64,000 bases of DNA, from NCBI RefSeq assembly GCF_036347055.1, contig NZ_CP108882.1, forward strand, positions 1,674,001 to 1,738,000, read 5' to 3'. The translations under genes and the position numbers were made by a program. The DNA comes from Streptomyces sp. NBC_00820 (GTDB taxonomy: Bacteria; Actinomycetota; Actinomycetes; Streptomycetales; Streptomycetaceae). Each line of letters starts with the position of its first letter. The first letter of the stretch is position 1. Below the pieces are notes generated by a model. It saw only the letters and a list, made by a program, of their open reading frames with translations, had not been told where the DNA came from and searched no databases. Of this stretch, positions 795 through 5,718 are shown piece after piece.

Positions 795-977
795 CCGTCG
801 GTCCCGTGCGTGGCCCTTCGCCCGCCGCCCTTCACCTTCGACCTCCGACCTTCACCGTTCGCCCTTCCGCCGGAAGGCACGGGCTTCGCCGCGAAGTGGG
901 GGACTTTTTCCCCGGAACGCCATCCAAGTCCGCTCCTGAGACGTATCCCAGGTACAGCGAGTTTCGGGAGGAACACA

Positions 978-1178
978 ATGGCGATCTTCAGCAGTCTCTT
1001 CCCCGCGAACCATCGCGACCGCGGGGACTTCACGTCACGTGACGGCGGCCACCACGGTCACGGCCACGGACACGGCGGCCACGGAAACGGTCACGGACAC
1101 GGTCACGGGCACGGCGGCCACGGACACGGTCACGGCGGCCACGGACATGGCGGCCACGGCGGCCACGGCGGCTACTGA
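978..1178 (+). CDS. 66-residue Gly/His-repeat peptide
   Basis: I recognise no named family. The ATG at 978 follows GGGAGGAACACA, a good ribosome-binding site. Residues 1-22 form an ordinary-looking N-terminal segment beginning MAIFSSLFPANHRDRGD. Residues 23-66 contain only glycine (25), histidine (17), one Asn and a final Tyr, in GH and GGH units. There is no Cys, no Ser/Thr in the tail and no clear signal peptide. A His-rich tail of this kind can bind Ni, Zn, Cu or Co; that is inference. An ABC half-exporter starts 77 bases downstream on the same strand and a kinase follows it, so this could be an exported or modified peptide with a leader-plus-tail layout, or a cytosolic metal sink. The tandem DNA repeats might make its length vary between strains. 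Confidence 0.7.
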   Translation: MAIFSSLFPANHRDRGDFTSRDGGHHGHGHGHGGHGNGHGHGHGHGGHGHGHGGHGHGGHGGHGGY

Positions 1179-1196
1179 CCACCCCCTAGGACTGAG

Positions 1197-1224
1197 CGGA
1201 CCGGGGACCGGAGGACCCGGTCCG
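1197..1224 (+). terminator. Hairpin between the Gly/His peptide gene and the exporter gene
   Basis: CGGACCGGG and CCCGGTCCG form a perfect 9-bp stem around a 10-base loop, 19 bases after the peptide stop codon and 32 bases before the exporter start. There is no U-tract. It could act as a partial terminator or mRNA stabiliser giving more peptide than transporter; that role is inferred. Confidence 0.5.
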
Positions 1225-1255
1225 CCCGGCCACCGCTGCACGAGGAACCGATGCC

Positions 1256-3124
1256 ATGGTGCAGGTCCTGCGGCGCCTTCTGTCGGTGCGCGGGGCATCC
1301 GACGCCGTAGTGGCCGCCGCTCCCGCGGTTTCCCCCCGTGAGGTGTTCCGGCGGTTCTGGCCCTACACCCGCGGTGGCCGGCGCTGGCTGGTGCCCGTCG
1401 TCGTGTTCAGCCTGATCGGGCCCGTCGTCGACGGCGCCGAGATCTGGCTGTTCAAGATCGTCGTGGACGACGTGCTCGTCCCCCGGGACCTGGGGCCGTT
1501 CCTCTGGATCGCCCCGGCCTATCTGGGGCTCTTCCTCTGCTCCGGCCTGGTCGGATTCGCCGACGACGTGACCGGCACCTGGGTCGGCGAACGCTTCCTG
1601 CTCTCGCTCCGCTCCGATGTCTACCGGCACGTCCAGGGCCTGTCGCTCGGCTTCTTCGAGCGCCGCCGGCTCGGGGACGTGCTGTCCCGTGTCACGGGGG
1701 ACGTGGACGCGGTCGAGACGTTCCTGCTCTCCGGGGTGGCCGACGCGCTCTACTACGTGATCCGGCTGGGCGTCTTCCTCGGCCTGCTGTTCTGGCTGCG
1801 CTGGGACCTGACCCTGCTCACGCTCGTCGTCGTGCCGCTGTTCTGGGGGGCGGCACGGCACTTCTCGGGGCTGATCAAGGAGGCGTCGCGGGAGCGCCGG
1901 CGCCGCAGCGGCTCGATCAGCGCGATCGCCGAGGAGTCGCTCGGCAATGTCGCCCTGGTGCAGGCGTACAACCGGCAGGGGTGGGAGCAGCGCCGGTTCG
2001 ACGAGGAGAACACCGGCCGGTTCCGGGCGGCGATGGCCTCGGCGCGGATCGGCGCCCTGTACGCACCCGTCGTCGAGTTCATCGAGGTGGCCGGGGCTCT
2101 CGCGGTGATGGGGATGGGCACCTGGGAACTGACGCGGGGCCGGCTCACGCTCGGCGGGCTGCTGGTCTTCCTGGCGCTGATCGGCAACCTCTACGGTCCC
2201 GTCCGCGACCTGTCCCACCTCGGCACCACGTTCTACGCGGCCTCCGCCTCGGCGGAACGCATCATCGAGCTGCTGGACCAGCGGCCCTCGGTGGCCGAGA
2301 CCCCGGGCGCCCGGCGGACCGGCCGGGCGCGGGGCGACGTGCGGTTCGACGGCGTCTGGTTCCGCTATCCCGGCGGGGAGCCCGCGCGGGCGAAGCCGGG
2401 TGCGGTTCAGGCGCCCTGGGCGCTGTCGGACGTGTCGTTCCATGTGGCACCCGGCCAGACACTGGCGCTGGTCGGGGCCAGCGGCGCCGGCAAGTCGACC
2501 GTCGCGAAGCTGCAGCTGCGCTTCTACGACCCCGACCGGGGGGCGATCCTCCTCGACGGGACCGACCTGCGCGAGCTGCGCCTGGCCGACGTACGGGAGA
2601 ACGTCGCGGTGGTGCTCCAGGAGACCCTGGTCTTCCACGGCACCGTGCGGGAGAACATCGCCTACGGCCGGCCGGAGGCGACCCAGGCGCAGATCGTCGC
2701 GGCGGCCCGCGCGGCGGACGCGCACGCGTTCGTCGAGCGGCTCCCGGACGGTTACGACACGCTGGTCGGCCAGCGCGGCCGTACGCTCTCCGGCGGGCAG
2801 TGCCAGCGCCTCGCGATCGCCCGGGCGATGGTCCGCGACGCGCCCGTGCTCCTGCTCGACGAGCCGACCACGGGGCTGGACGTGCGGTCGGGCAGGCGGA
2901 TCATGGAGCCGCTGCGGCGGCTGATGGCCGGGCGGACGACCGTCGTGATCTCGCACAACCTGCTGACCGTGCGCGAGGCCTCCCGGATCGTGGTCCTCGA
3001 CCGCGGCCGGGTCGTCGAGGACGGCACCCACGACGAACTGCTGGCGCGCGACGGGACGTACGCCCGCCTCCACCGCCTGAACGGCACCCCCGGTCCGAGG
3101 GCGCCGGGAAAGGTGCCGCCATGA
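1256..3124 (+). CDS. ABC exporter half-transporter (fused permease and ATPase)
   Basis: This 622-residue protein has an N-terminal six-helix exporter domain (about residues 35-320, with the typical LSLGFFERRRLGDVLSR coupling segment) and a C-terminal ATPase. The ATPase has Walker A GASGAGKST, signature LSGGQ, Walker B VLLLDEP and a switch His in VVISHNL. No peptidase C39 domain is present, so it would not cleave a leader itself. The ATG at 1256 has GAGGAA eight bases upstream; the ATG at 1251 is out of frame. The stop overlaps the kinase start as ATGA, which implies translational coupling. As a half-transporter it should dimerise. The substrate is unknown; the Gly/His peptide just upstream is the obvious candidate by position only. 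Confidence 0.92.
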   Translation: MVQVLRRLLSVRGASDAVVAAAPAVSPREVFRRFWPYTRGGRRWLVPVVVFSLIGPVVDGAEIWLFKIVVDDVLVPRDLGPFLWIAPAYLGLFLCSGLVGFADDVTGTWVGERFLLSLRSDVYRHVQGLSLGFFERRRLGDVLSRVTGDVDAVETFLLSGVADALYYVIRLGVFLGLLFWLRWDLTLLTLVVVPLFWGAARHFSGLIKEASRERRRRSGSISAIAEESLGNVALVQAYNRQGWEQRRFDEENTGRFRAAMASARIGALYAPVVEFIEVAGALAVMGMGTWELTRGRLTLGGLLVFLALIGNLYGPVRDLSHLGTTFYAASASAERIIELLDQRPSVAETPGARRTGRARGDVRFDGVWFRYPGGEPARAKPGAVQAPWALSDVSFHVAPGQTLALVGASGAGKSTVAKLQLRFYDPDRGAILLDGTDLRELRLADVRENVAVVLQETLVFHGTVRENIAYGRPEATQAQIVAAARAADAHAFVERLPDGYDTLVGQRGRTLSGGQCQRLAIARAMVRDAPVLLLDEPTTGLDVRSGRRIMEPLRRLMAGRTTVVISHNLLTVREASRIVVLDRGRVVEDGTHDELLARDGTYARLHRLNGTPGPRAPGKVPP

Positions 3125-4188
3125 GCGAGGCACCGCCCCTGCCGCCGGGCGCGCGACCGGTCCGCGGGTACGAGGTCCTGGTGCATCTGACGCGGACCGG
3201 CTGGCTGGACGTGTACGACACCTGGAGCGAGGAGCGCCGCTGCCGTTGTGTGCTCAAGGTGGTGCGTCCCGGCCGGCGCGGGGAGGCGCGGCTGGGCGAG
3301 CGACTGCTGCGGGAGGGCCGGTGGCTGCGGGAGTTCACGCATCCCCATCTGGTCCGCGCGTACGAGGTGTTCGAGGTGCCCGAGCCGTCGGTGGTCCTGG
3401 AGACGCTGACCGGTGAGACGCTGGCCCGTCTGATCGGCCGGCTCCGCCGCCGCCCGGCCGCGGCCGACGTGGCACTGCTCGGGGTCCAGCTGTGCTCGGC
3501 GGTCCACTACCTGCACCGCCGGGGCCTGCTGCACCTGGACCTCAAGCCGTCCAACGTGGTGGTGGAGCGCGGGCACGCGAAGGTGCTGGACCTGAGCGTC
3601 GCGCGGCCTCCGGGACCGGCGCCCGCGGGTGTCGGCACGTGGCGTTACCGGGCGCCGGAGCAGGAACGCGGCGCGACGCTCACGGCCGCCGCCGACGTCT
3701 GGGGCATCGGCGTCACCCTCTTCGAGTTCGCCTGTGGTGACACGCCGTTCGGGCGGGGCGCGGGCACGGCGGAATCGTGCGGGGCAGACGCGGCGGAATC
3801 GTGCAGGGGAGGCACCGTGGGTTCCTGCACCGGGGGCACTGAGGGTTCCTGCTGCACCGCGGGCAGTGCGGAGTCCCGCGCCCGTGACCCGAAGGGGACA
3901 GGCGCCGGCGGTACGGAGGAGTCCTGCGAGTCGTGCGAGTCGTGCGAGTCCTGCGAGTCGTGCGAGTCGTGCGAGTCCTGCGGCGGTGATCCGGGCGGCC
4001 GGTGGCCGTGTGCGGCGCTTCCCGCCCCGCCGGTCGCCTCCCGCAGACGTCTCGCGCCCGCCCTCGCCGCCGCCGTCGACAGCTGCCTGCGCGCCGACCC
4101 GTCCGACCGGCCGGCCGTCGCCGAGCTGGCCGCCGCCCTGGACGCGGCGCTGCCGGAGCCGTACCGCGCGTCCCAGGCCCACGCCTGA
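3121..4188 (+). CDS. Ser/Thr protein kinase with a Cys-rich insert
   Basis: This is a 355-residue Hanks-type kinase with no transmembrane segment, so it is probably cytosolic. Visible motifs are the ATP Lys in CVLKVVRP, a C-helix Glu, catalytic loop HLDLKPSN, DLS in place of DFG, and RAPEQE for the APE motif; it therefore looks catalytically competent. Between the F-helix region (FEFACGDTPFG) and the final helices lies an insert of about 85 residues (about 212-298) rich in Ser, Gly, Glu and Cys. It includes seven tandem ESC units encoded at 3919-3981. The insert is unlike the usual kinase fold and may bind metal or form disulfides; that is inference. The ATG at 3121 overlaps the exporter stop, so kinase and exporter are probably made together. 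Confidence 0.88.
   Translation: MSEAPPLPPGARPVRGYEVLVHLTRTGWLDVYDTWSEERRCRCVLKVVRPGRRGEARLGERLLREGRWLREFTHPHLVRAYEVFEVPEPSVVLETLTGETLARLIGRLRRRPAAADVALLGVQLCSAVHYLHRRGLLHLDLKPSNVVVERGHAKVLDLSVARPPGPAPAGVGTWRYRAPEQERGATLTAAADVWGIGVTLFEFACGDTPFGRGAGTAESCGADAAESCRGGTVGSCTGGTEGSCCTAGSAESRARDPKGTGAGGTEESCESCESCESCESCESCESCGGDPGGRWPCAALPAPPVASRRRLAPALAAAVDSCLRADPSDRPAVAELAAALDAALPEPYRASQAHA
3919..3981 (+). repeat. Seven tandem 9-bp units GAGTCSTGC inside the kinase gene
   Basis: The unit GAG-TC(C/G)-TGC is repeated seven times in frame and encodes (Glu-Ser-Cys)7. The third-position C/G alternation shows slight divergence. Slipped-strand length change would keep frame. Confidence 0.95.
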
Positions 4189-4267: not shown

Positions 4268-5044
4268 TCACGCCTCCCGGGTCTGCACCTGTCCGATCTC
4301 CAGCTCGGCGGTGGCGAGGACGGTGCCCCCGGGGGACGTCAGGCGGACTCCGGTGACCGACGACGGGGCGACGGAGACCGCGACACCCCAGCTGCCGCGC
4401 CCGTCGCGCACGGCGAAGTCACCGGCCCGGACGGCCGTGCCGTCGGAGCGTTCGAGGTAGCACCTGACCTTGCCGGTGTACGAGGAGTGGGGACCGGTGA
4501 GGCCGACGGTCACGAACATCCAGCCGGGGTTCCCGGGGTGGGCGTAGACCTCGCCGACGGCCCGGGCTCCGCCGGAGGCCGGGGCCAGCAGGTCCCCGAC
4601 CAGCACGGGCTCGGTCTCCACGGCGGGGGCCGGCGAGGCCGTGATCTCCTGGACCGCGGTGCTGATCCCCCAGCCGGCCAGCCCGCAGCCGATGGCGAAC
4701 GCGGCCACGACGGACGCCAGCCGCACCCGGGCCCGGCGGACCCTGCCGTACGGGCTCCGGTGGGCCGCCGGGCGCGTCTGCGCACGGCCCTCGTGCGCGG
4801 TCGCGGTCGCCGTCCTGACCAGCCGGCGGGTCACCCGGGACTCGAACCCGGGCGGTGGCTCGCGGTCCGGGAGCAGGCCGATCAGCCGGTCGCCGGCCAG
4901 GGTCAGCTGCTCGACGTACTCCCGGCAGTCCGCGCACCGCTCCAGGTGTGCGACGGCTTCGGCCCGCTCCCGCCCGGGGAGCACGCCGAGCGCCAGTTCG
5001 GCGCCGTTCTCCCGCAGCTTCGCGCAGGTGACGTCATCGGCCAT
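4268..5044 (-). CDS. Zinc-finger anti-sigma factor (ZAS/RskA-like)
   Basis: This 258-residue protein should hold the adjacent ECF sigma factor at the membrane. The N-terminal domain has an early Cys (VTCAKL) and the HLERCADC motif (HxxxCxxC) typical of zinc-containing anti-sigma domains. One transmembrane helix lies at about residues 108-127 (LASVVAAFAIGCGLAGWGIS). The C-terminal 130 residues would be extracytoplasmic and look like the RskA-type sensor domain. The ATG at 5044 lies inside the end of the sigma gene (11-base overlap), so the pair is translated together. The signal sensed is not evident from the sequence. Confidence 0.88.
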   Translation of the reverse strand: MADDVTCAKLRENGAELALGVLPGRERAEAVAHLERCADCREYVEQLTLAGDRLIGLLPDREPPPGFESRVTRRLVRTATATAHEGRAQTRPAAHRSPYGRVRRARVRLASVVAAFAIGCGLAGWGISTAVQEITASPAPAVETEPVLVGDLLAPASGGARAVGEVYAHPGNPGWMFVTVGLTGPHSSYTGKVRCYLERSDGTAVRAGDFAVRDGRGSWGVAVSVAPSSVTGVRLTSPGGTVLATAELEIGQVQTREA

Positions 5045-5621
5045 GGTCGCCTCGCTTCGGAGACGTGAGCGTGGCGCGCAGCTTGGCCATCGCGGTCCTG
5101 ATGCGCGTCTTGGCGGTACCGAGCGGGATGTTCTCCCGGTCGGCGATCTGCTGGGCCGTCATGCCGTAGATGCCGGCCATCACCAGGGCCCGGCCCTGTT
5201 CCCGGGGCAGCCGGGCCACGGCTGCCCGTACCCGGGCGGAGGCCTCGTCGGCCAGCGCCCACTGCTCGGGGGTGTCGCTGACGGCGTCGAGGAGCGCGTC
5301 GAGTTCCTCCGGGGCGACCGGCTCGGTCCGCCGGGAGCGGAGGGCGTCGACGGCGAGGTTGTGCGCGATGGTCGTCAGCCAGGTCGCCACCGAACCGCGG
5401 CGCGGGTCGTAGACCTGGGCATGGCGCCACGCTCGCTCGAACGTCTGCTGGGCGATGTCCTCGGCGAGCTGCGGGTCTCCGGTGACGGCGATGGCGACAC
5501 CGAAGACCTTGTGCTGGAACCTCCGTACGAAGCCTGCCGCGAGTTCCGGGTCGCCGGTGGCGAGTCCGGACAGCAGAGCCTCGTCCGGGAGGCGGCCCAC
5601 CGGGAACCGGATCCCCTGCAT
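5034..5621 (-). CDS. ECF-type RNA polymerase sigma factor
   Basis: Region 2 is visible at about residues 15-85 (QQTFERAWRHAQVYDPRRGS and WLTTIAHNLAVDALRSRR). Region 4 is at about residues 125-185, with the helix-turn-helix GMTAQQIADRENIPLGTAKTR. The length of 195 residues is normal for an ECF factor. I chose the ATG at 5621 because translation upstream of it (up to 5711) does not resemble a sigma factor; its ribosome-binding site is weak and close (GAAGGT just before ATG). The gene is followed, with overlap, by its likely anti-sigma factor. Its regulon cannot be read from this window. Confidence 0.88.
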   Translation of the reverse strand: MQGIRFPVGRLPDEALLSGLATGDPELAAGFVRRFQHKVFGVAIAVTGDPQLAEDIAQQTFERAWRHAQVYDPRRGSVATWLTTIAHNLAVDALRSRRTEPVAPEELDALLDAVSDTPEQWALADEASARVRAAVARLPREQGRALVMAGIYGMTAQQIADRENIPLGTAKTRIRTAMAKLRATLTSPKRGDHGR

Positions 5622-5718
5622 ACCTTCATATACGGTGCGCCCCCGCCCAGAGATTGCCCGGTCACCGCGGCGGAAGATCACCTTCCCATTGTCCGCCCGC
5701 CCGGCCGGCACCGCCCGT

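Follow-up and report, generated by a model that had tools for sequence, protein, structure and literature searches.

A family of low-complexity peptides encoded with an ABC exporter and a separable Ser/Thr kinase that probably acts on their tails

Introduction

What use does a Streptomyces cell have for a short peptide with a tail of almost nothing except glycine and histidine, encoded just ahead of an ATP-binding cassette (ABC) exporter and a Ser/Thr kinase? The question is raised by a locus of Streptomyces sp. NBC_00820 in a stretch of 64,000 nucleotides (contig NZ_CP108882.1, positions 1,674,001 to 1,738,000; hereafter the window), part of an 8.1 Mb one-contig chromosome. An initial annotation of this DNA proposed that the three genes form a cassette, in which a metallophore-like or modified peptide is exported by the ABC protein and the kinase acts as a controller or modifying enzyme. 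Here, we describe related loci from across the phylum. The peptide and exporter genes form a conserved pair, the kinase gene is present at some loci and absent from others, and the Ser/Thr content of the peptide tail follows the kinase.

Results

Peptide and exporter genes stay together across the phylum

Orthologues of the window's ABC protein with at least 70% identity occur in 17 of 150 genomes of the genus, its own included, and the next identity is only 52%. The gene was found in 27 of 293 genomes of the order (E <= 1e-180) and 41 of 392 genomes of the genus (E <= 1e-200) in other draws, and a contig search for relatives gave at least 64 named loci at 57-84% identity among the 79 listed. 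We ran 133 loci with one script, a set that includes same-species duplicates from two collections; a few distant loci were initially read by eye. A small low-complexity peptide open reading frame (ORF) lies directly 5' of the ABC gene in 128 of the 133. The remaining five are a contig start (L100), a broken frame (L187) and three loci where none was called (L213, L216, L219); in the genome of L213 the peptide was recovered once a wider stretch was examined. Our peptide caller always returns a best ORF, and its calls were hence scored against controls: the minimum within the cassette family is 5.6, whereas 13 loci of unrelated ABC genes (31-40% identity) reach at most 4.1 and include no boxed low-complexity peptide.

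Setting aside 7 unusable loci and 22 duplicates left 104 non-redundant loci, and the cassette ranges from Streptomyces to Nocardioides and Rubrobacter. An intact kinase gene adjoins the ABC gene in 80 of the 104 loci; 24 are without it, three of them holding remnants. The proposal of a three-gene unit that keeps together is supported. Separation of the genes in relatives would have spoken against it; peptide and ABC genes are joined in 128 of 133 loci, and at least 13 switches between presence and absence of the kinase were counted on the ABC tree.

Our kinase-profile search covered 296 genomes of the phylum, and 24 genomes match at E <= 1e-50. The own genome and ten others, which match at E <= 1e-101, carry the cassette kinase. 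Nine of these ten share one family, including Rubrobacter xylanophilus DSM 9941 (100% protein match), and the tenth belongs to a different family. The ABC gene (53-62% identity) adjoins the kinase in 9 of 10 Rubrobacter-type loci, and eight of those nine hold ten peptides with the box described below, a Ser/Thr cluster and an Arg tract. Two of the 13 weaker matches were inspected (L280, L281) and have no such adjoining ABC gene. Counting against a fixed unit are a kinase locus without an adjoining ABC gene (L272) and another at which the peptide was not found (L271).

In a recurrence count of protein clusters without annotation, any gene family other than the ABC, kinase, sigma factor and anti-sigma factor genes was shared by 4 of 26 distant loci at most. 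We regard the cassette and its peptide family as all but certainly real. Streptomyces nigrescens HEK616 carries a copy (L102) on a plasmid of 1.07 Mb, and two copies per genome occur in Streptomyces carpinensis (L090, L109) and in genome G580 (L200, L223).

A short N-terminal box is conserved and the tails vary

The conserved part of the peptide is a short N-terminal box, not the Gly/His tail. Most members begin with the consensus M-A-I-F-x-x-L-x-P-A (P9 in 88 of 99, A10 in 80 of 99), the M, P and A of which are invariant in 24 chosen diverse members. The box often continues as D-[ST]-[ST], and the first Ser/Thr stands 9 residues past it in 29 of 80 kinase-linked peptides. Substitutions in the box among near relatives fall mostly at codon position 3 (5734, compared to 2410 and 1814 at the other two; 1703 overlapping pairs). 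The initial annotation had looked to residues 1-22 for conservation, which we find for residues 1-10 and not throughout residues 11-22. Several members depart from this picture: the canonical box is absent from L117, L186, L214 and several Kitasatospora-type peptides (L097, L101, L103), which counts against the model proposed below.

Behind the box, the tail may be Gly/His (the window), Gly/Arg/Tyr repeats (L112), Asp/Arg (L094), Asp-His-Gly (L109), Arg-rich (L071), RS-repeat or poly-Arg. A Nocardioides peptide, for example, reads MARSSIFTSLRPAVQARRMDDTSDDRRRR...NRNRSRSRSRSRTN, with NRNRSRSRSRSRTN as its tail end. The family is nearly invisible to similarity search. A peptide-level protein search found matches in 7 of 150 genomes including its own, two of which (G046, G147) have no cassette there, and a word-limited search against 5.8 billion proteins gave one match at E <= 1e-3. 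A Pfam search with 24 of the 104 peptides hit four families, each through a single member (best E 0.03), and these hits were taken as chance.

This variation bears on the suggestion that the peptide is a metallophore or metal store, in which His and Asp, together with phospho-Ser, would bind Zn, Ni or Cu and export would serve detoxification or uptake. His makes up at least 20% of 54 of the 104 tails, and the window member has 17 His among 44 tail residues, as such a role would predict. Yet only 35 of 104 tails reach 50% Gly plus His, 9 of 104 have no His at all, and those of Nocardioides and Rubrobacter are rich in Arg. We reject the metallophore as the general function of the family for want of conserved His, and metal handling of any general kind seems quite improbable; metal binding may have arisen secondarily in the Gly/His branch.

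Two further features of the peptides were observed. Pseudonocardia peptides L114 and L122, where the kinase was not found, contain DRDNDGYDD and DRNNDGYDD, which resemble calcium-binding loops. At L275 and L276, two different poly-Arg peptides stand in tandem before a single ABC gene.

Tail serine and threonine follow the kinase

All 80 kinase-linked tails have at least two Ser/Thr, compared to 6 of 24 kinase-less tails, and 12 of the 24 have none. Ser/Thr doublets occur in 69 of 80 kinase-linked tails versus 5 of 24 (Fisher p 4e-9, kinship uncorrected). Phylogenetic generalized least squares (PGLS) on the ABC tree relates the kinase to a rise in Ser plus Thr of 0.054 of tail residues (p 5e-4) and a fall in Asp of 0.071 (p 9e-6), the two that pass Bonferroni correction among seventeen residue tests. 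Gly, His, Arg, Asn, Tyr, Phe, Trp, Gln and Glu are unchanged by kinase state, and Ser/Thr within the N-terminal box (N-box) show no kinase effect (PGLS p 0.15). Both effects persist without the remnant loci, at ABC identities of at least 65% or at least 75%, and in sigma-bearing loci (weakest p 0.01). Among 11 independent pairs on supported branches, an average of 7.2 agree with the association and 0 go against it (median p 0.016). The ten Rubrobacter-type peptides, all with the kinase, have a median Ser/Thr density of 0.23 (kinship uncorrected).

Kinase remnants at L073, L168 and L200 point to loss of the kinase. We searched for a kinase orthologue in 12 kinase-less genomes, which represent half of the 24 kinase-less loci or duplicates of them, and in 11 found it nowhere, the best matches being kinases of 33-39% identity or none. 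In the twelfth, G580, a kinase and a Ser-rich peptide (MAIFSKLIPARNDDHRSSRHH...) are encoded at a second locus, next to a broken ABC gene; at its kinase-remnant locus the tail is Gly/Arg/Tyr without Ser/Thr. The simplest reading of these sequences is that the tail is a substrate of the kinase and that loss of the kinase is met by dropping acceptors that have become useless and gaining Asp, a phosphomimetic exchange.

Net charge varies along with these changes. Among kinase-linked tails, denser Ser/Thr goes with a more positive net charge (rho 0.70, uncorrected), and mean net charge per residue is +0.11 in kinase-linked and -0.06 in kinase-less tails. Subtracting one charge per Ser/Thr brings the kinase-linked mean to -0.03, close to the kinase-less -0.06 (PGLS p 0.69), and subtracting two overshoots. 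Cys averages 0.1% of kinase-linked and 0.7% of kinase-less tail residues, and the window peptide has none.

Several observations weigh against a simple match between kinase and tail. Six of the 24 kinase-less tails keep at least two Ser/Thr, two of them at remnant loci, and the doublet is absent from 11 of 80 kinase-linked tails. Lys is weakly higher with the kinase (p 0.03) and Cys weakly lower (p 0.05) in PGLS, and Tyr, Phe, Lys and Cys all differ by kinase state without tree correction. Independent pairs are only suggestive when scored by doublets (median p 0.06) and not significant when scored by below-median Asp (median p 0.25), and the ABC tree has long branches that meet. The kinase itself has a degenerate P-loop, LxRTGWLDxYD in place of GxGxxG.

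Alternatively, the kinase may signal elsewhere, with the anti-sigma factor or the ABC protein as a possible target, and owe its association with Ser/Thr to shared ancestry. The association is comparative only, and many kinase-less loci are related, with 13 state changes on the tree. However, the association survives PGLS and independent pairs, is strongest for tail Ser/Thr and Asp and is absent in the N-box, and 26 of the 80 kinase-linked loci have no linked sigma factor. We consider a target elsewhere improbable, and action of the kinase on the peptide tail probable on this comparative evidence. The earlier suggestion that the kinase modifies the peptide thus gains support from the contrast of 80 of 80 with 6 of 24 tails and from the phylogenetic regression.

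The catalytic residues of the kinase, K46, E65, H138, D140, N145 and D157, do not vary among the 42 members aligned, nor do the PEQ and DVW motifs. Its Pfam Pkinase match has E 2.7e-31. A structure model is confident (mean pLDDT 83.5) except around residues 215-290, where ESC repeats sit, and general kinases, PknB among them, are the closest structures. A LanL profile matches at E 2.2e-21, far under its cut-off. The initial annotation had made a Cys-rich kinase part of the cassette. The window kinase has 18 Cys, including six consecutive ESC repeats at residues 267-284. Of the other 79 kinases extracted, 78 have 2-9 Cys and one has 15. We rejected the Cys tract as a functional feature and place it outside the system because it is confined to the window kinase. 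The PADLOC models for defence systems that match are kinase and ATPase models, the best being mad6 (E 9.6e-42) and PD-T4-6 (E 3.1e-35) for the kinase and mad3 (E 1.5e-31) for the ABC protein; we read these matches as generic and rejected a defence role, a search for defence neighbours not having been made.

The exporter belongs to a wider group paired with boxed peptides

Streptomyces paralogues of the ABC protein at 48-52% identity, picked as controls, turned out to be accompanied by a boxed peptide in 12 of 13 cases, e.g. MSFKKLAPLPPKPKAKQLPPPPKPKPKKKHQPKPLPKPLPGHDH. In a further set at 45-51% identity (L282-L301), a pattern found boxed peptides in 17 of 20 loci, with L285 as an eighteenth, and four of the 20 have tandem boxed peptides. 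Paralogue loci have caller scores of 2.5-6.4, and the 20 loci gave no cassette-kinase match within the stretches fetched. Their peptides are Pro/Lys-, Ala/Lys- or Arg-rich, with a median Ser/Thr density of 0 (3 of 22 have at least two Ser/Thr; kinship uncorrected) and a mean net charge of +0.28. By these counts, a wider group of ABC proteins is paired with boxed peptides, and the kinase is a feature of one branch. A shared gene for a product of about 320 residues lies downstream in seven of the paralogue loci (L282-L288).

The cassette's ABC protein has its top matches among exporters of drugs and lipids, with MsbA as the best profile and ABCB types as the best structures. This counts against a peptide cargo, which is accordingly read from synteny; the protein also matches a solved structure of the yeast a-factor peptide exporter (E 1e-124). 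The strongest rival to export is that the peptide is a regulatory subunit, which docks on the ABC protein through the N-box and serves with its tail as a charge sensor, so that the kinase tunes transport of a lipid or another molecule. Besides the MsbA and ABCB likeness, the near inseparability of the peptide and ABC genes, as opposed to the separable kinase, is consistent with such a subunit. Such a subunit should retain its tail, whereas tail composition turns over almost wholly between relatives, and different peptides in tandem (L275, L276 and four paralogue loci) fit cargo better. A regulatory subunit is therefore unlikely in our view, and we lean towards export of the peptide by the ABC protein, as gene order suggests.

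For the final function, the strongest rival is a self-protected antimicrobial. The kinase would mask the charge of a cationic or metal-activated linear antimicrobial or antifungal peptide while it is still in the cell, the ABC protein would provide export and immunity, and dephosphorylation outside would arm the product. Before any phosphorylation, kinase-linked tails are net positive (+0.11) and kinase-less tails are not (-0.06). Compositionally biased linear antimicrobial peptides include classes with such tails, and the poly-Arg/RS, Gly/His and Gly/Tyr tails of the family, together with the Pro/Lys tails of the paralogues, resemble them. The Gly/His-rich shepherin I is reported to have antifungal activity tied to Zn(II) (PMC10698721). 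On the other hand, kinase-less lineages keep the box and the exporter despite neutral or acidic, Asp-rich tails, so that function seems compatible with low charge; the paralogue peptides are cationic (+0.28) without a kinase; and no further family, such as an immunity or activator gene might form, exceeds 4 of the 26 distant loci (clusters without annotation). We consider an antimicrobial function unlikely.

A SigK-like sigma factor is predicted to control the cassette

Genes for an extracytoplasmic function (ECF) sigma factor and a membrane anti-sigma factor lie convergent to the cassette in the window. The SigK model PRK09646 is second best for the sigma factor (E 1.4e-32, under its cut-off). 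The other protein matches an anti-sigma model (E 5.3e-16) and zf-HC2 (E 2.9e-4), both under curated cut-offs, and Pfam gave no match to the C-terminal RskA domain. Within the stretches fetched, the sigma gene is near 72 and the anti-sigma gene near 73 of the 104 loci, and at seven loci (L091, L094, L096, L099, L102, L107, L117) they stand beside the cassette in other orders or orientations. We count the pair as part of the unit at 72 of the 104 loci.

The peptide gene is preceded by CCATCC-N16-CGTAT in all 72 sigma-bearing loci (score 9-11 of 11; spacer 16 in 71), mostly 57-62 nt 5' of the peptide start, compared to shuffle means of 6.6-8.2. Thirteen of the 32 loci without a linked sigma factor also score at least 9. 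The sigma gene is preceded by a variant, CAATCC-N16-CGTATA, with a score of 9 or 10 (of 11) at each of the 72 loci, a count made without a shuffle control. In the own genome, the sole perfect match to CMATCC-N16-CGTATMC is the site before the window peptide (920-948); there are 17 one-mismatch sites, compared to 6 for the reversed pattern, and a shorter pattern gives 7 sites versus 3 for its control. Caution is due here, as the motif was defined after the upstream sequences had been viewed. Promoters before both the sigma gene and the peptide gene suggest that the sigma factor controls its own gene and the operon. The CCATCC-N16-CGTA motif agrees with the Mycobacterium tuberculosis SigK site, which begins with CCATCC. 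SigK-binding sites are reported to be highly conserved between Actinobacteria (PMC7509140). From the motif and its distribution, control of the cassette by the sigma factor is very likely.

The true start of the sigma gene is probably the ATG at 5621, and its mRNA may be leaderless because the promoter (5628-5656) ends so near this codon. Two identical one-mismatch promoter-like sites elsewhere in the genome (L233 and L249, at 84943 and 8021418) are equidistant from the chromosome ends and probably sit in terminal inverted repeats.

The locus in the window

Features of the locus are collected in Table 1. The peptide, the half-exporter without a peptidase domain, the kinase coupled to it by ATGA and the upstream ApbE gene were all correctly described in the initial annotation, as ORFs and Pfam confirm. 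The peptide start codon is preceded by a good ribosome-binding site, GGGAGGAACACA. Pfam finds ABC membrane and ATPase domains and weak generic ATPase matches in the ABC protein, and gave no peptidase domain. The four-base overlap of the ABC and kinase genes is present in 57 of 80 kinase-bearing loci.

Table 1. Features of the cassette and its regulators (positions in the window)
Feature	Position	Strand	Remarks
ECF (SigK-type) promoter CCATCC-N16-CGTATCC	920..948	+	58 nt 5' of the peptide start codon; score 11/11
Peptide ORF	978..1178	+	66 aa; MAIFSSLFPANHRDRGDFTSRDGG, then Gly/His tail
N-terminal box MAIFSSLFPA	978..1007	+	Conserved peptide part of the family
Predicted phosphorylation cluster D17-F18-T19-S20	1026..1037	+	Putative site
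Gly/His low-complexity tail	1044..1175	+	Residues 23-66: 25 Gly, 17 His, 1 Asn, 1 Tyr (of 44)
ABC half-exporter, MsbA/ABCB type	1256..3124	+	Peptidase domain absent (Pfam)
Ser/Thr kinase	3121..4188	+	ATGA overlap with the ABC gene
Six ESC repeats, kinase insert	3919..3972	+	Outside the conserved system
Membrane anti-sigma factor, RskA-like	4268..5044	-	Models under cut-off; membrane span by eye
ECF sigma factor, SigK-like	5034..5711	-	Sigma70 regions 2 and 4
Probable sigma-gene promoter CAATCT-N16-CGTATAT	5628..5656	-	Motif match

The ApbE gene (PF02424, E 5.4e-43) lies 5' of the cassette and extends into the window from outside it. We rejected it as a cassette part because it is near only 38 of 104 loci in the stretches fetched. 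Genes for an FMN-binding protein and a ferric-reductase-like protein, recognized by eye, also precede the cassette. The FMN-binding-type protein at L039:9147-9998 has two SGATYTS motifs and is presumably a substrate of the adjoining ApbE. At L039:6944-7651, 5' of the ferric-reductase-like gene, a protein ending HVNGKAATAGCVSVPEDAM... seems by eye to have an L,D-transpeptidase-type domain.

Discussion

Proposed mechanism and significance

From the computed unit, tail compositions and shared promoters, we infer phosphorylation, export, recognition through the N-box and action at the envelope as follows. An RskA-like anti-sigma factor would hold the SigK-like sigma factor until an envelope signal frees it to transcribe the sigma gene and the peptide-ABC-kinase operon. 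The 10-residue N-box would serve as a recognition element, or leader, for the exporter and probably for the kinase, ahead of a disordered, hydrophilic tail. The kinase would phosphorylate Ser/Thr past the box and so place negative charge on a tail rich in Arg, Lys or His, and the ABC protein would export the peptide, giving a charge-tuned polyampholyte outside the cell, at the envelope. Lineages that lose the kinase would swap Ser/Thr for Asp.

We assign a probability of about 0.5 to sigma control, kinase action on the peptide and ABC export holding jointly. The broader proposal falls just short of even odds: exported disordered peptides occur phylum-wide with a charge set by a separable Ser/Thr kinase, a counterpart of SR proteins and SRPK joined to an ABC exporter, with a SigK-like envelope-stress switch in Streptomyces, repeated phosphomimetic replacement on loss of the kinase and a wider superfamily in which paralogous ABC exporters go with Pro/Lys-rich boxed peptides and without a kinase. 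The final step, a polyampholyte role outside the cell, is speculative and, as a specific proposal, rather unlikely.

If the mechanism is correct, the charge of a disordered peptide is tuned in bacteria through phosphorylation ahead of its export, which gives bacterial Ser/Thr kinases a new use and a SigK-like sigma factor of Streptomyces a defined target. Lineages in which the kinase was lost and Asp took over amount to a natural experiment, from which substrate, sites and a charge rule can be predicted. In addition, the larger family of boxed peptides and ABC proteins could be explored for antimicrobial or envelope functions.

Comparison with known systems

The overall layout of peptide, modifying enzyme and exporter is familiar, and the matched peptide-kinase family is new to us. 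No description of the cassette was found among the titles and abstract openings listed for the open-licence literature, in line with the earlier statement that no named system resembles it.

Class III and IV lanthipeptide systems have the enzymes LanKC and LanL, as in SapB/RamCSAB of Streptomyces. They share with the cassette a short peptide, an ABC exporter and a Ser/Thr kinase domain, predicted here to act on the peptide. In contrast, the cassette enzyme is a kinase domain only, without a lyase or cyclase domain (Pfam, NCBIfam), the cassette peptides mostly lack Cys, and the kinase is closest to PknB in sequence and fold. In ThurKC, a short helix formed by the leader peptide is reported to bind to the kinase N-lobe (PMC10604976), and by analogy the N-box may dock on the cassette kinase in much the same way. 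The same source reports that the isolated ThurKC kinase domain fails to phosphorylate its peptide (PMC10604976), a point against our reading that makes the parallel between lanthipeptide enzymes and a lone kinase weak.

Other systems resemble parts of the cassette. Phosphorylated lasso peptides of the paeninodin type likewise combine a small peptide and an exporter with a dedicated kinase. The cassette peptide differs in its low complexity, and the recurrence count (clusters without annotation) gave no further recurring family, such as a cyclase or leader protease would form. Phenol-soluble modulins and leaderless bacteriocins are leaderless peptides with dedicated ABC exporters, similar to the cassette in the hydrophobic start, the short peptide and an exporter without a peptidase domain; the cassette tail is hydrophilic and of low complexity rather than an amphipathic helix, and a kinase is in the unit. 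The mycobacterial SigK/RskA pair (ECF18/19) probably has its counterparts in the SigK-like sigma factor and the membrane anti-sigma factor, and it is autoregulated, as is predicted here, whereas the cassette target would be the peptide operon, not MPT70/MPT83-type antigens. Hpn-type peptides are small, His-rich and involved in metal storage, and the window peptide is also small and His-rich, but the cassette family is defined by exporter and kinase, not by His. Eukaryotic SR proteins, with their kinase SRPK, and protamines have RS-repeat or poly-Arg tails. Similarly, the family includes RS and poly-Arg tails in which Ser/Thr are matched to a kinase, an analogy drawn without an SRPK comparison; unlike SR proteins and SRPK, the cassette is bacterial and coupled to an exporter.

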